Part shown: positions 53,751 to 59,880 of the stretch, in pieces | Numbering within the stretch: position 1 is the stretch's first letter | Layout: every line of letters begins with the position of its first letter | Source of the DNA: Alphaproteobacteria bacterium | Lineage (GTDB): Bacteria > Pseudomonadota > Alphaproteobacteria > Sphingomonadales > Kordiimonadaceae | Reading direction: 5' to 3' | DNA length: 64,000 nucleotides | NCBI GenBank assembly: GCA_006226495.1 | Contig: SBGU01000002.1 | Coordinates: 1 to 64,000 of the forward strand | The notes under the pieces: generated by a model | What the model was told of the DNA's origin: nothing | The model's input: only the letters and a program-made list of their open reading frames with translations | Databases searched by the model: none | Translations under genes and position numbers: made by a program

Positions 53751-55001
53751 ATGCGAAAATATCTGGCACTGATGGCGCTGGCTACCTGCCTTGTTTATCC
53801 AGGCACAATCCCGGGAAGCGGCAAAGCATTCGCGACCGGCTTTGCCAAGGGTGATGAAACAGCAAAGCAGCCATTCCGGGGACCCCTTGCACCAGACCTT
53901 CCGCTTGCCGGGGGCTATGATGGCGCGGCGAAGGCGCTGGCCCAGGTTGATGACAATCCGATCATCGCCTGGGAATATCGTATCTGGTGCGAAACCGGAT
54001 ACCGTTCCCCCGAAGACGCCGGGACCGGGCAGAAAGTCGATGACGCAGCAGATCTGCGGCGCGACTATATGTCCCCGAAGGGTTTTTTCCACAGCGAAAC
54101 GGCAAACAGATTGATGCCTGAGGATGGTGTTCCATTTCTGGAGAACGCCTGGTATTTCGGCGCCGACGGCCTTGGCGTTGTTGTGGTCAGGCGCCCGGAA
54201 GGGTTGCTGATCTTTGACACCATGGGCAACCGCGATCATTTCAAACTGGTGCTGTCACAGATGAAGGCGGCGGGTCTTGACCCGAAAGATACCCGCTATG
54301 TCTTTATCGGACATTTTCATCAGGACCATACCGGTGGTGTCAATCTGATCCGGGAAATTGCGCCGGATGTAAAGGTCGTGATCGGAGCGCCGGATGCCGC
54401 GATTATCGGCGAAGCGCGAGACGCATTACGCGCCGGCAAGATGCCTGAAGCCACCCTTCCCCTGAAGGCAGTGCCCTTCTATCGGAAGAAAGCCAAAACG
54501 CCCGAGGAATCGGTCAGGTTGCAGGAACAGCGCCTGGCAACCATTCCCCGGAGATTCGATATTCTCGTGGAACCGGATGCCGGTGTGAAGACCGGCATGC
54601 AGGTCATTGATGTGAGCCCTGCGACCCAGGTATATGCCATTCTCGCCCCGGGGCATACGCCGGGCCAAACCTGGTTCATTGTGCCGGTGGAACATCGCGG
54701 CGAAACACGTCAATTGCTGGTACAGAGCGGCAACGACATGCCTGACGAGGCAAAACAATATGCCAATTCTACCAGCTTTGTTCGTGCTGTTGCGGGACAG
54801 GTCGGCGCGGACACCATTATCAACACCCATGGGTATCAAGGGGCGATGTATTACCATTTGCGCCAGTTGAAAGCTGATCCAGGTGGCCCGAACCCCTTCG
54901 CAATGGGCCCGGACGGGATTGACCGTTTCCTTGGCATATTCGCAGAATGCCAGCGTGCCACCTACAACCGGCTGAAAGACGGAACCTGGCAGGCCTTCTA
55001 G
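53751..55001 (+). CDS. Exported metallo-beta-lactamase-fold hydrolase
   Basis: 416-residue exported protein with an N-terminal signal peptide. The metal site HFHQDHTGGVN is near residue 185, GLLIFDTMG before it is the usual MBL strand, and the further ligand regions are APGHTPGQTWF and NTHGYQGAMYYH. It resembles class B3-type beta-lactamases in motif but is longer and may be a lactonase, sulphatase or esterase. There is no adjacent beta-lactam gene. It is downstream of the TonB receptor of the catabolic island, in the same direction, so an extracytoplasmic hydrolysis step of the substrate is the likely role. Confidence 0.85.
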   Translation: MRKYLALMALATCLVYPGTIPGSGKAFATGFAKGDETAKQPFRGPLAPDLPLAGGYDGAAKALAQVDDNPIIAWEYRIWCETGYRSPEDAGTGQKVDDAADLRRDYMSPKGFFHSETANRLMPEDGVPFLENAWYFGADGLGVVVVRRPEGLLIFDTMGNRDHFKLVLSQMKAAGLDPKDTRYVFIGHFHQDHTGGVNLIREIAPDVKVVIGAPDAAIIGEARDALRAGKMPEATLPLKAVPFYRKKAKTPEESVRLQEQRLATIPRRFDILVEPDAGVKTGMQVIDVSPATQVYAILAPGHTPGQTWFIVPVEHRGETRQLLVQSGNDMPDEAKQYANSTSFVRAVAGQVGADTIINTHGYQGAMYYHLRQLKADPGGPNPFAMGPDGIDRFLGIFAECQRATYNRLKDGTWQAF

Positions 55002-55174: not shown

Positions 55175-56224
55175 TCAGGCTGCGTGGTCACCCGAGTTGA
55201 TGGGGCAGGAAACGATGCGTTCCTTATAGTCCGCCCATGAAGCATGGGTGAGCTTTTCGCGGTAGGGGATGCGGTCTTCGGGCACCAGGGTCCAGGCGAT
55301 GCCACCACACTTGCGCGCGGGGAACAATAGTTCGCCCAAGCGGGCCTCAAGCGGTCGGTGGTCGCCGAATTCATCAAAAAAGTCCCAGGCCACCAGGTCA
55401 CCCTGGCGCAGGCTGCGGCTGGCGTCCGACGGACCTGCCTGATCCTCGATGAAATCGGCCAACCCGTCCAGCTCGGCCTGCTCCGCGAACAGGCAGACAC
55501 AACTGTTGCCGTCTGCATCCTTCAGGAGATACCCGCCCGAGCGGCTGTGGTAATAATATTCGGCGAACGGAAATTCGGCATAAACCTCCGTCATCAGGGA
55601 GGCGAGCTGGTCACGCGCCGGGCCACTGTCTTCGGCCGCCCGCAGCGCACTGCGGAAGGGCGCCAGTTTTTCGGCCAGATATTCATGGTGCAGTTCCTCG
55701 ATCATGCCCTTGAGCTTCTGGAGCGCGAGCGGGTCCTTTTTCGAGATGAACCGGTCCATGACACCCGTATTGAAAGCTTCGATCGTGGCGCCTGCGTCAT
55801 CCATCTGCCCGGTCAGCAGGATGGTCTTGATGCCCGTGCCCTTGAGCGCGCGGCAGAAATCGAGCCCGCGCATGCCCGGCATCACCTCATCGACCACAGC
55901 GACGGAAACAATCTTGTAGCGCCCGCCCTTGACCGCAAAATCATGGATTCGGGAAGACTTCAGCAATACAAACCGGTCGCCGCTTTCGGCCTCGCGGCCT
56001 TCGGCAGGATAACCATGTTCGGAAAACAGGTTGAAGGCATCGGCGGCAAGTTTCTGGGAGGCGCGCACATAGGAAAGCGCGCCGTCGACCGAGGAATAAC
56101 CAAGCACGGCATGATGGCGGCCAAGCACGCTTCTGAGCGACCAGAGAAAATCCTCATCATCATCCAGAAGCAGGGTGCTGCAGGGATGATAGAACGGAAA
56201 CTCGGGATGGAACGGATTAGTCAC
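55175..56224 (-). CDS. Response regulator with unknown output domain (LqsR-like layout)
   Basis: 349-residue protein with an N-terminal receiver domain and a C-terminal half I do not recognise. The acid pocket is LLLDDDEDFLW (residues 18-28), the phospho-acceptor is D112 in VAVVDEVMPGMRGLDFC, the Thr/Ser is in ILLTGQMDDAG and the Lys in RFISKKDP. About 60 extra residues lie between the acid pocket and D112, so the acceptor is far from the usual residue 54. I recall the Legionella regulator LqsR with its acceptor at residue 108 and no DNA-binding output domain. The C-terminal half (YAEFPFAEYYYHSRSGGYLL, WDFFDEFGDHRPLEARLGE) has no DNA-binding motif. Start GTG 56224 has GGAGG upstream. Confidence 0.8.
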   Translation of the reverse strand: MTNPFHPEFPFYHPCSTLLLDDDEDFLWSLRSVLGRHHAVLGYSSVDGALSYVRASQKLAADAFNLFSEHGYPAEGREAESGDRFVLLKSSRIHDFAVKGGRYKIVSVAVVDEVMPGMRGLDFCRALKGTGIKTILLTGQMDDAGATIEAFNTGVMDRFISKKDPLALQKLKGMIEELHHEYLAEKLAPFRSALRAAEDSGPARDQLASLMTEVYAEFPFAEYYYHSRSGGYLLKDADGNSCVCLFAEQAELDGLADFIEDQAGPSDASRSLRQGDLVAWDFFDEFGDHRPLEARLGELLFPARKCGGIAWTLVPEDRIPYREKLTHASWADYKERIVSCPINSGDHAA

Positions 56225-56412
56225 GCGATCGCCCTCCGGAACTGGCAAGCCCTGTCCATGGCATGCGACTGTCGACAATACCCCTCTTGGTCACTATTGA
56301 TTCTTCCTAAAATTGCAGTCAAAGATTTGCGGTTGTCGCCGCTTTTGTAAAGTGGAAATCTTGCCATCCGCATTACTTTAGCATAGTGCGACCTGTAACT
56401 GGGAGGAATCAG

Positions 56413-57099
56413 ATGGCCGAGCATGCCGAAAACCAGGATCGCCTGCAGGCGCTGATGGCACGGCGCCAGGCGGCAGCCCTGCTTCATGACATCAATTCCC
56501 CCCTCCTGACAATCCGTACCTTGTCGCAACTGTTGCTGGAAGACGAGAAAAGCAACCGGACCGAGGTTGCCACCCGGATCGAGGCCCAGGTGGACCGGAT
56601 CGGGCGGCTTCTGGACGCCTATTGGCAGATGCTGGACCATACCATCCCCGCAAGCACGGACCCGGCAACCGGAATTCCGCAGACCACAGGCTCCACAGGC
56701 ATGGCCACCGGACCACTTGAAATCCTGCTTGTTGAGGATGACGACATCCACCAGGAGGTCGGCCGCCGGCTTCTGGCACAGATGGGCCACCATGTCACCC
56801 TGTGCGAAAGCGGCGCGGACGCCCTCAGGCTATGCAAAAGCCGGCACTTCGATATCGTCTTTGTCGACCAGCATGGGCCAAACATGCTTGGGACCGAATT
56901 TGCCCGCGCCCAGCGTGCTGCCGCTCACGCAGCCGGCCGCCCTCGCCTTGTCGGCATGTCCTGCGATCCCCGCACCGACGAAATGCGCAGCGAATGCCTG
57001 CTGAACGGCATGCAAGATTATCTGGAAAAACCGCTGACCCGCGACAAGCTGGCCACGATACTGGACAGCCTGTTCAACCAGCGCCCACACGCGGGATAG
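56413..57099 (+). CDS. Phospho-histidine helix fused to a receiver domain
   Basis: 228-residue cytoplasmic protein. Residues 10-75 form a dimerisation/His-phosphotransfer-like helix with AALLHDINSPLLTIRTL (His25, H-box like). Residues 101-225 are a receiver domain: LLVEDDDIHQEVG (acid pocket 108-110), FDIVFVDQHGPNML (phospho-acceptor D152), LVGMSCDP and DYLEKPLTRDK (Lys206). There is no ATPase domain between or after them, so it cannot be a kinase and is probably a phosphorelay or acceptor protein. ATG 56413 has GGGAGGA upstream. It is divergent from the response-regulator gene and overlaps the kinase gene tail-to-tail by 26 bases. Confidence 0.8.
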   Translation: MAEHAENQDRLQALMARRQAAALLHDINSPLLTIRTLSQLLLEDEKSNRTEVATRIEAQVDRIGRLLDAYWQMLDHTIPASTDPATGIPQTTGSTGMATGPLEILLVEDDDIHQEVGRRLLAQMGHHVTLCESGADALRLCKSRHFDIVFVDQHGPNMLGTEFARAQRAAAHAAGRPRLVGMSCDPRTDEMRSECLLNGMQDYLEKPLTRDKLATILDSLFNQRPHAG

Positions 57100-59146
57100 A
57101 CCCCGTCGCCCGCTGCGCCGATGCCCCTTCAACCGGTAGGGACAGGGTGAATTCTGTCCCGGTACCAAGCTCGCTTGAAACCACGACCGTACCGGCATGG
57201 GTTTCGGTGATGCGGCGGATGACCCCAAGCCCGAGCCCGGTGCCGTTTTCCGCACGGCGGGTTGTCTCCGGCGCCTGCCACAGGGTGGCGATCCGTTCCT
57301 TGGCAATGCCGCAGCCATTGTCCTGCACACAGCACCCGATGCGCCGGGACGCAGCGTCATACCAGGTCCAGATGCGCACCATATGGTCGTCCTTGTCCTG
57401 CGCCGAGAAGGCATTGGACAAAAGATTGGAAATCAGGATCTCCAGCTCTTCCTCATAACCGACAAGCGGTGGCAACGGGTCGAGCGACATGGATACGGTA
57501 CCGGCCTTGGTCGGGAAACTGCCAACCACCCGTTCGATGACCGTGTTCAGGTTCACCGGGCCCTTGCGCTTGTGGTGGTTGCCTTTCAGCATGCCGGTCA
57601 TGGTGGCGACCAGCGCATGGCCCTTGCGGACCTGTTCAAGGATACGGGCCTGCCGTTCCTCGGCCGAAAAGGCATCGCCCGCCAGCAACAAAGCCTCGAT
57701 ATTCGAAAATGGCGTCTTGACGTCATGGTTATATTCATTGAGCCGCGACACGACGGACAGGGTCTTTTCAGCTTCGTCCAGGCTGGTTTCGAGTTTCAGG
57801 AGCGCAATCAGGGTCTCGAGCACGGGCCCGACTTCCGACCCGAACCAGTTCAGAAGGCGCACATCGTCGTAACTGAACTGTTCCTGCTTGCCGGGTGCAC
57901 CCAGAAGCACAAAACCCACCGTTTCCTGCCCGATACGGATCGGCACGACGGCGCTGGCACCCAGACGCTCCAGGTCTTCACGAAGCGCGGGGGCGGCGTC
58001 ATCGTAAAATTGCGTCTCGGCGATATCGTTTGGTCGACGGCTGAAGATCGAGCCTTCAAGGGCCGATACAGGCGCCTGCGGCCCGATGGCCGCAGTGCCG
58101 GCCGCCGGATCGAACGCGCGGCAGGGGCCACCGGTCGGGCCACCTGTGAAGCGGGAGTTCAGGTGAATACTGTAGCCCCTGACGCCAACAAGCCGCCTGA
58201 ACACCTCGTCACACAGCTTGCCAAAGGCGTCGACCGAAGAACAGTTTTTAAGCGCGGTCAGGACCCACGACCTGGCAAAATCGAAATTATAATGCCGGCC
58301 AAGCTGATATTTGTTCCGGAGTTCGGCCAGGAAGCGTGTGAAGCGCGGGTAGATTTCCAGAATACCCAGGAGAATCACCACCTGGATCACCATATTTTCG
58401 GGCTGGTTGGGGCTCAGGCGTTCGTTGGCCTCGCCGACCAGGAAAAAGACCGACAGGAGCCCGGTTGCCGCCGCAAGCTTCAGGAGGCCGTTGTCGAACA
58501 CGCTGCGGATGCTGGAAAGCCGGTGCCGCGCGGTCGCATAGGCAAAACAGGACAGCACAGCAAGGTTGCCTGCGGTGCCTGCAATCAGCTTCGAGAACTC
58601 GAAGCTCAATACACCCAGAAGGGTGCCTACACCCACACCAACCGTGATCCAGCGCAAGCGCTGCTTTTCGGCGAACACCGCCCGCCGGTAGGCTTTTATG
58701 CCCAGGGCGACAGAGGCAACGCCGGCAAAGACAAAATTCCAGCGGTGAATACTGGTCACCAGGTCCGGGATCGGCGAATAGCGCGTTTCCGTAGGGGTGA
58801 GGTCGGTCGGCAGGGCAAAGACATTCACCACGGAAATGGCAATGCCGACAGCAAAGGGCAAGGCCATCAGCGCAATGATGCCGCCTGTCAGCCGTGTCCG
58901 CGTGGTCAGGACCATGAAACACAGGAGGAGCGGGGCAATCATGAACATGCCGGGCCGTGTGATCTGGAAGAGCGGCGTCAGAAGGTCCAGATCCTTGACG
59001 TATGTCAGGAAAAACAGCTCAAGCGACCAGACACCGCCGGAAACCGCCAACAGCGAAAAGGCAACAGCGGCACGACTGCGGCTTTTGGCCAGCACGAGCC
59101 CTGCCACAAAAAAGTCGATTAGCGCTGTCAGAAAATAGGCAAGCAC
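57074..59146 (-). CDS. Multi-span GAF histidine kinase
   Basis: 690-residue sensor kinase. The N-terminal 270 residues have about seven to eight membrane spans (for example ALIDFFVAGLVLA, MFMIAPLLLCFMV and NLAVLSCFAYATARHRLSSI), the layout of 7TM histidine-kinase sensor domains. A GAF-like domain covers about 290-450. The H-box is RLNEYNHDVKTPFSNIEAL with His474, and the ATPase has N578 in LLSNAF, DNGCGIA (609-615) and GTGLGLG (635-641). The H-box differs from the usual S-H-E-[LI]-R-[ST]-P-L, with N-H-D-V-K-T-P-F. Start GTG 59146 with AGGA upstream. It lies 137 bases downstream of the acyltransferase gene, same direction. Confidence 0.88.
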   Translation of the reverse strand: MLAYFLTALIDFFVAGLVLAKSRSRAAVAFSLLAVSGGVWSLELFFLTYVKDLDLLTPLFQITRPGMFMIAPLLLCFMVLTTRTRLTGGIIALMALPFAVGIAISVVNVFALPTDLTPTETRYSPIPDLVTSIHRWNFVFAGVASVALGIKAYRRAVFAEKQRLRWITVGVGVGTLLGVLSFEFSKLIAGTAGNLAVLSCFAYATARHRLSSIRSVFDNGLLKLAAATGLLSVFFLVGEANERLSPNQPENMVIQVVILLGILEIYPRFTRFLAELRNKYQLGRHYNFDFARSWVLTALKNCSSVDAFGKLCDEVFRRLVGVRGYSIHLNSRFTGGPTGGPCRAFDPAAGTAAIGPQAPVSALEGSIFSRRPNDIAETQFYDDAAPALREDLERLGASAVVPIRIGQETVGFVLLGAPGKQEQFSYDDVRLLNWFGSEVGPVLETLIALLKLETSLDEAEKTLSVVSRLNEYNHDVKTPFSNIEALLLAGDAFSAEERQARILEQVRKGHALVATMTGMLKGNHHKRKGPVNLNTVIERVVGSFPTKAGTVSMSLDPLPPLVGYEEELEILISNLLSNAFSAQDKDDHMVRIWTWYDAASRRIGCCVQDNGCGIAKERIATLWQAPETTRRAENGTGLGLGVIRRITETHAGTVVVSSELGTGTEFTLSLPVEGASAQRATGSIPRVGAG

Positions 59147-59283
59147 GGGGGCATCCTGAACACATCAATGGCCTCAGCTTCTGTCATACCATGATTGGGG
59201 CCGCCGTACACCCGAAAAGAGATAAATGACAATGGAAGGATGTATTATCCTTCCATTGTTGAAAGTTTTACGCGCATTGCCGC

Positions 59284-59880
59284 CTAAAGGTTGAGGCCAA
59301 ATCTCGCAAAGGTATTGGACAGCGCGGCATCGGCCAGCGCCGCTTTCCTGAGCGACATGATCGGGCAGGCGAGAAGCTGGATCTGGAAATTCAGCGTGCG
59401 CGCCTGCCGCACCTCGGACACCGGTTCAAAATGCATGGTGCGGTAGAAACGCGCGTGTTCCGGCCGGGTTTCGGTCAGGATATAGTCGGCACCCACTTCC
59501 TTGGCCATGTCGAAAATATGGCCAAAGAGCTTGAGTTTCAATCGGTTCTGCCGGTTCTGGAAACTCGGATGCACGACAAATTTGCTGGATTCGACCAGGA
59601 CTTCACCACAGTCGGAATAGCGCTCGACCACGTCGCCGAATACTTCCATGGACGGAATGGGCAGCTCCGGCTGCTCGGGATCATAGACCGAGGCGCGGAT
59701 GGAACCTGCCGGCACACCCTCAACATATTCGATGAAGGACTGGCAATTCTCGGCCCGGTCGTACCCATCCATGAACATGCGCTGATGGTTCGGCCGGATC
59801 GAGTCGTTGCCCAGGTATGCGGTGTAGCGCAACTCATAGATGTCCCGGGTGGCGGCGGTTTGATGTTGGCTTGTAAACAT
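59284..59880 (-). CDS. FeeM/LuxI-like N-acyl amino acid synthase
   Basis: 198-residue GNAT-type acyltransferase. The N-terminal DIYELRYTAYLGNDSIRPN, the middle EVLVESSKFVVHPSFQN and ADYILTETRPEHARFYRTMHFEP are the features of the FeeM/LuxI-related N-acyl amino acid synthases (the T-x-x-P-x-H-x-x-F-Y motif near residue 145). Such enzymes use acyl-ACP to acylate amino acids such as tyrosine or make homoserine-lactone type signals. The related PEP-CTERM/exosortase-associated acyltransferases are an alternative, but no exosortase is in the window. ATG 59880 has GGGAG 6 bases upstream. It lies upstream of the kinase gene in the same direction. Product and substrate unknown. Confidence 0.82.
   Translation of the reverse strand: MFTSQHQTAATRDIYELRYTAYLGNDSIRPNHQRMFMDGYDRAENCQSFIEYVEGVPAGSIRASVYDPEQPELPIPSMEVFGDVVERYSDCGEVLVESSKFVVHPSFQNRQNRLKLKLFGHIFDMAKEVGADYILTETRPEHARFYRTMHFEPVSEVRQARTLNFQIQLLACPIMSLRKAALADAALSNTFARFGLNL

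Follow-up and report, generated by a model that had tools for sequence, protein, structure and literature searches.

Long-chain N-acyl amino acids are produced by environmental-DNA clones which carry relatives of the synthase FeeM, and the kinase PrsK of XrtA/PEP-CTERM systems has a multi-span N-terminus in combination with a GAF and kinase layout. Response regulators of the LqsR family are known from the LqsA-LqsS-LqsR system of Legionella (PMC3376566 and PMC5289986) and from Ralstonia where, according to PMC10653808, the LqsR-family regulator PhcX has moved away from LqsA-LqsS and is located beside the Phc locus. In this work we describe a locus of some marine Kordiimonas bacteria in which a FeeM-type synthase and a kinase are encoded together with an LqsR-family regulator, and which probably represents a hybrid quorum-sensing system with a new synthase-receptor pair driving an old LqsR output. 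In the literature covered by our search (preprints and most subscription journals lay outside it), no description of a FeeM-type N-acyl amino acid synthase with a receptor kinase, with LqsR or with a GGDEF protein was found. Among the matches listed for LqsA, LqsR and autoinducer synthases none named Kordiimonas, and the search for Kordiimonas quorum sensing yielded no description of this system.

Organization of the Locus

The window, i.e., the whole stretch of DNA that was analysed, comprises 64,000 nt and corresponds to positions 1-64000 of contig C40 of a 4.32 Mb draft genome (G000) of a Kordiimonas species. The following features were assigned:

59284..59880, minus strand: FeeM-type N-acyltransferase (198 aa; PF21926), proposed signal synthase
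57074..59146, minus strand: 7TM-GAF sensor histidine kinase (690 aa; HATPase_c, GAF, weak HisKA_7TM), proposed receptor of the FeeM product
56413..57099, plus strand: HisKA-receiver protein without ATPase domain (228 aa; HisKA and Response_reg), proposed phosphorelay intermediate (or phosphatase)
56225..56412, no strand: divergent intergenic region between the LqsR and HisKA-receiver genes (188 bases, from the coordinates)
55175..56224, minus strand: LqsR-family response regulator (349 aa; 6sy9 match), proposed output

The gene order in the window is aroA (-), FeeM (-), kinase (-), HisKA-receiver (+), LqsR (-) and a gene encoding a metallo-beta-lactamase-fold protein (+). The kinase and HisKA-receiver genes are convergent with an overlap of 26 bases, and the LqsR and HisKA-receiver genes diverge from the 188-base region, which likely contains the promoters of both; by eye, a ribosome-binding-like sequence lies directly 5' of the GTG at 56224 (LqsR) and of the ATG at 56413 (HisKA-receiver). 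A preliminary description of this DNA had placed the four signalling genes at these positions within 4.7 kb and without an unrelated intervening gene, which was confirmed. The four-gene set is not a chance grouping, because the Kordiimonadales MAG NORP107 (G001) has a cassette of the same order and orientation. The metallo-beta-lactamase-fold gene (53751-55001) is convergent with LqsR and scored 64.8 bits with a subclass B3 model (cut-off 240); it had no match in those relatives' loci which were examined for it.

The Encoded Proteins

The acyltransferase is of the FeeM type, with 110.1 bits for PF21926 (cut-off 27). Its AlphaFold model (pLDDT 88) found FeeM itself as top PDB fold match (2g0b, E 3.8e-11, TM 0.70), followed by acyl-homoserine-lactone synthases, and the residues R18, D41, R62 and E97 are invariant across six family homologues. 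A single-sequence search against the PDB recovered no FeeM chain, and the Pfam autoinducer-synthase (LuxI) family was not among the matches of the protein down to E 0.1. Judging from the family, the product is most likely an N-acyl amino acid, formed from a fatty-acyl group and an amino compound.

The kinase has a HATPase_c domain (70.1 bits), a GAF_3 match slightly below its cut-off of 27 (26.6 bits) and a HisKA_7TM match which is also below cut-off (20.5 bits). Simple hydropathy gave about seven hydrophobic stretches in residues 1-270. The H-box reads NHDVKTP with H474, which is invariant in the homologues. Similarity to LqsS queries was confined to the ATPase/HisKA part, and thus no LqsS-type kinase is found beside the regulator.

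For the HisKA-receiver protein the Pfam search, in which the longer frame 56386-57099 was used, gave HisKA (33.2 bits) and Response_reg (58.6 bits) and no ATPase domain, so that the protein is unable to charge itself. H25, D109, D110, D152, S183 and K206 are invariant in five homologues. A putative relay from the kinase via D152 and H25 to D112 of LqsR fits these data, and a role as phosphatase would fit them too. Comparison of the H-boxes by eye did not discriminate between LqsS and the kinase as the closer relative of this HisKA domain. Pfam and hydropathy thus confirm what the preliminary description had read from this region, namely a FeeM-like synthase, a GAF kinase with about seven spans and a His-helix/receiver protein lacking the ATPase.

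The fourth protein is an LqsR-family regulator. With the longer frame extending to 56278, Pfam gave Response_reg at 27.5 bits, under the cut-off of 30.2, and no output domain. A phmmer search against the PDB found Legionella LqsR (6sy9) with E 1.5e-24 over residues 11-278, the next match having 0.0025; a profile of six regulator sequences reached E 2.3e-43 over residues 11-283. The last 70 C-terminal residues lie beyond the 6sy9 match. 6sy9 also ranked first in a Foldseek search (E 2.8e-17), ahead of the GGDEF response regulator 3bre and PleD on ranks 2 and 5 with an rmsd of 13-16. The model itself has low confidence (mean pLDDT 65, pTM 0.47), and superposition of the whole chain is poor (TM 0.37); the fold result therefore leans on the receiver and on local similarity. 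D21, D22, E24, D112, T138 and K162 are invariant across six homologues. Together with H474 of the kinase and the six conserved residues of the HisKA-receiver protein, every position required for phosphotransfer is invariant. In the alignment with the deposited 6sy9 chain, D112 corresponds to D128, while the acceptor of LqsR is D108 according to PMC3376566; the shift of 20 residues presumably reflects a tag. The acceptor D112 and the lack of a recognisable output domain, both noted in the preliminary description, are hence borne out, as is its statement that the LqsR acceptor lies near residue 108, and the structural comparison with LqsR which it had proposed gave LqsR as best match by sequence and by fold.

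Distribution and Conservation of the Cassette

FeeM was detected in five of 29 Kordiimonadaceae genomes with six copies in total, all of which are directly followed by the kinase gene. Among 59 genomes LqsR was present in seven, the match in G036 being weak and partial; within the family it was present in six of the 29. All five FeeM genomes possess LqsR, and 23 of the 29 family genomes have neither; the chance of all five FeeM genomes falling within the six LqsR genomes is 5e-5 if independence is assumed, the genomes being related. The HisKA-receiver gene occurs in four of the 29 genomes and adjoins the kinase gene in each. NORP107 carries the full FeeM-kinase-HisKA-receiver-LqsR cassette, and in K. 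marina (G011), whose assembly is broken by a repeat, HisKA-receiver and LqsR are located next to FeeM-kinase copies.

Other relatives show a looser arrangement. In K. gwangyangensis (G010), G020 and G027, LqsR has an LqsA-type synthase and a kinase of the LqsS type as neighbours, as in the standard locus; the LqsA proteins scored 451.5 (G027), 452.3 (G020) and, slightly under the cut-off of 428 for alpha-hydroxyketone autoinducer synthases, 424.1 bits (G010). In G010 and G020 the FeeM-kinase pair and LqsR are on separate contigs and LqsR keeps its own LqsA-LqsS; in addition, G020 has no HisKA-receiver gene. Both observations count against a hybrid system, as does a locus of the N-rich MAG NORP254 (L027, 4645-6577), in which HisKA-receiver and an LqsR gene interrupted by Ns are retained beside aroA and in which no FeeM or kinase match was found. 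The co-conservation of the four genes, for which the preliminary description had asked, thus holds for NORP107 and K. marina and dissolves into a looser module in G010 and G020.

An LqsA orthologue was not found in the genome of the window, where the search gave two matches of 27-30% identity, the better one being a serine palmitoyltransferase, and the cassette contains no LqsA-type alpha-hydroxyketone synthase. At a threshold of 1e-40, 36 of 40 genomes matched LqsA, nearly all with 27-32% identity, and orthologues (60-84%) were confined to G010 and G020; this set of 40 did not include G027, in which LqsA was identified from the locus. The synthase, recognised as FeeM by PF21926, is of a type unlike LqsA, as had been supposed.

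At 1e-15, LqsR was found in 11 of 385 genomes of the class. An LqsS-type kinase was encoded within about 1.5 kb in seven of the 16 loci outside the own genome, and a FeeM match within that distance in none. A separate contig scan gave at least ten LqsR loci; it missed Legionella LqsR itself and is hence non-exhaustive. Phylogenetic analysis of 19 LqsR proteins grouped the three FeeM-linked representatives (those of the window and two relatives) in one clade (SH-aLRT 99; bootstrap 82, i.e., below 95), and the LqsA-linked Kordiimonadaceae fall outside it. This topology suggests a single move of LqsR out of the Lqs locus.

Beyond the family, the FeeM profile at 1e-8 matched three of 385 genomes of the class and 23 of 398 genomes of a phylum sample (own genome counted in both). 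In none of the 22 non-own loci of the phylum sample was the 7TM-GAF kinase or LqsR found within about 1.5 kb, and 19 encode a membrane GGDEF-EAL-type protein within that distance, so that the pairing of FeeM with a signalling protein is recurrent; these 19 loci are non-independent, as only three of five families contribute to them. Pfam found GGDEF and EAL in all eight neighbours tested and in two longer loci. The neighbours, from other Alphaproteobacteria, are membrane PAS-GGDEF-EAL proteins (e.g., L053 8244-11167 and L054 4650-6980; further L055-L074). A PEMT/ICMT-like methyltransferase gene lies between FeeM and the GGDEF-EAL gene in two loci. The FeeM/GGDEF-EAL loci as a whole could possibly form a circuit from an acyl-amino acid (methyl ester) to c-di-GMP.

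Co-divergence of Synthase and Sensor

For six FeeM-kinase pairs, which are related sequences, the matrices of pairwise identity were compared. The FeeM matrix correlated with that of the 7TM part of the kinase (first 280 residues) with r 0.78, a value reached by two of 720 permutations, whereas r was 0.02 for the kinase core (residues 456-592; 354 of 720 permutations). Leaving out one pair at a time gave r 0.51-0.92 for the 7TM part (one to four of 120 permutations) and -0.06 to 0.16 for the core (50-70 of 120); the lowest 7TM value, 0.51, was obtained upon removal of K. gwangyangensis. The nearest neighbour by FeeM is also the nearest by sensor for five of the six pairs. The exception is the window, whose FeeM is closest to that of K. 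gwangyangensis and whose sensor is closest to that of NORP107, which counts against the hybrid system.

The two K. marina kinases A and B share 31.7% identity in the 7TM part, 93.8% in residues 391-455 and 92.0% in residues 456-592, and the corresponding FeeM proteins 45.3%; at E 1e-3 the copies had no nucleotide match beyond the kinase core. One contig of K. marina (C18, locus L010) starts inside a kinase gene and continues with the genes for HisKA-receiver and LqsR, and two more contigs carry FeeM-kinase genes (L034 on C5, L035 on C21). All these ends have the same exact 72 bases within the kinase core, a shared stretch at which the tandem copies collapse the assembly. The simplest arrangement would be aroA, FeeM-A, kinase-A, FeeM-B, kinase-B, HisKA-receiver and LqsR, in which the FeeM-kinase unit would be present at least twice. 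A putative signal-receptor pair which diverges in specificity would be expected to leave such a pattern of homogenised cores with divergent sensors and synthases, although the pattern does not prove binding. That tandem copies with swapped sensor halves give rise to new signal specificities feeding one conserved output is an idea we hold tentatively, with somewhat more doubt than belief. On L010 (2537-6366), 3' of the K. marina LqsR gene, lie genes for a small membrane protein and for what by eye resembles a MacA-MacB-type exporter, which are not conserved in the window; the putative exporter could possibly serve signal export.

Alternative Explanations

FeeM and the kinase might also form a self-contained signal-receptor pair with another response regulator as real output, LqsR being a mere neighbour in three genomes. 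The pairs without a linked LqsR in G010 and G020 and the separable cassette parts in NORP254 speak for such an arrangement; we nevertheless regard it as unlikely, since FeeM and LqsR are jointly present or jointly missing in all but one of the family genomes and the FeeM-linked LqsRs still retain all receiver residues without LqsA-LqsS partners. Less probable again is that the FeeM product acts as surfactant, membrane lipid or antagonist and that the kinase monitors this product or the membrane in order to control synthesis instead of counting cells. The long-chain products of the environmental-DNA clones agree with this explanation, which would likewise involve a ligand-receptor pair, but the synthase-sensor co-divergence, the homogenised kinase core and the tandem pairs would rather be expected for specific signals.

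The preliminary description had offered an exosortase/PEP-CTERM-associated acyltransferase with a PrsK-like kinase as its alternative. The kinase core indeed scored 83.6 bits with the PrsK model (TIGR02916) and the genome has one exosortase. The PrsK cut-off of 300, however, was reached by no kinase in eight genomes, and the model also matched 11 of 14 control genomes, so that the score reflects generic kinase similarity. TIGR03694 is absent from the genome, the partner of the kinase is LqsR and not a PrsR-type regulator, and the sole PF09721 match (G000:C36:78326-79075, L016) is located on another contig in a polysaccharide-type locus; the genes flanking the cassette are aroA and the metallo-beta-lactamase-fold gene, and no exosortase was found next to it. 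An exosortase/PrsK identity was rejected on the absence of TIGR03694, the PrsK score and the location of the exosortase, and its probability is marginal.

Proposed Mechanism and Comparison with Known Systems

In the hybrid system favoured here, the FeeM-type enzyme would link an amino compound with a fatty-acyl group, and the kinase, whose gene follows immediately, would sense the resulting product with its seven-span part. The phosphoryl flux would reach LqsR, probably through the HisKA-receiver protein, in the order kinase His, receiver Asp, HisKA His and LqsR D112, and LqsR itself may derive from an ancestral LqsA-LqsS-LqsR locus by a single capture. Of the three outcomes which the preliminary description had named as refuting its interpretation (no co-conservation, an adjacent exosortase locus, no structural match to LqsR), none was observed, and its interpretation is supported to that extent. 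If the hybrid system is real, an LqsR output can be connected to another signal chemistry, and the locus would join Ralstonia PhcX as the second such case, the synthase class being different; the FeeM-type N-acyl amino acid synthases would gain a candidate receptor, and the K. marina paralogues would represent a natural sensor-swap experiment.

The window enzyme shares Pfam family and fold with the FeeM synthase 2g0b; the two have 15% identity over the fold alignment, and the window enzyme is paired with a histidine kinase. PrsK and its acyltransferase from XrtA/PEP-CTERM systems resemble the window in the multi-span/GAF/kinase layout and the GNAT acyltransferase, but the window proteins remain below both curated models and the contig has no exosortase. 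In the Phc system of Ralstonia, an LqsR-family regulator is likewise detached from LqsA-LqsS and lies beside another quorum-sensing locus. The partner synthase there is the methyltransferase PhcB, whereas the window, from Alphaproteobacteria, has a FeeM-type synthase with its own kinase, and the FeeM-LqsR linkage is apparently independent of the PhcX event. Like the window, the Lqs system encodes a synthase, a multi-span kinase and an LqsR-family regulator together, and in both the acceptor is unusually late (D108 in Legionella LqsR, D112 here). The Lqs synthase is the PLP-dependent LqsA and its kinase LqsS has about 415 aa, whereas the window combines a FeeM/GNAT-type synthase with a 7TM-GAF kinase of 690 aa and possesses the HisKA-receiver protein in addition.
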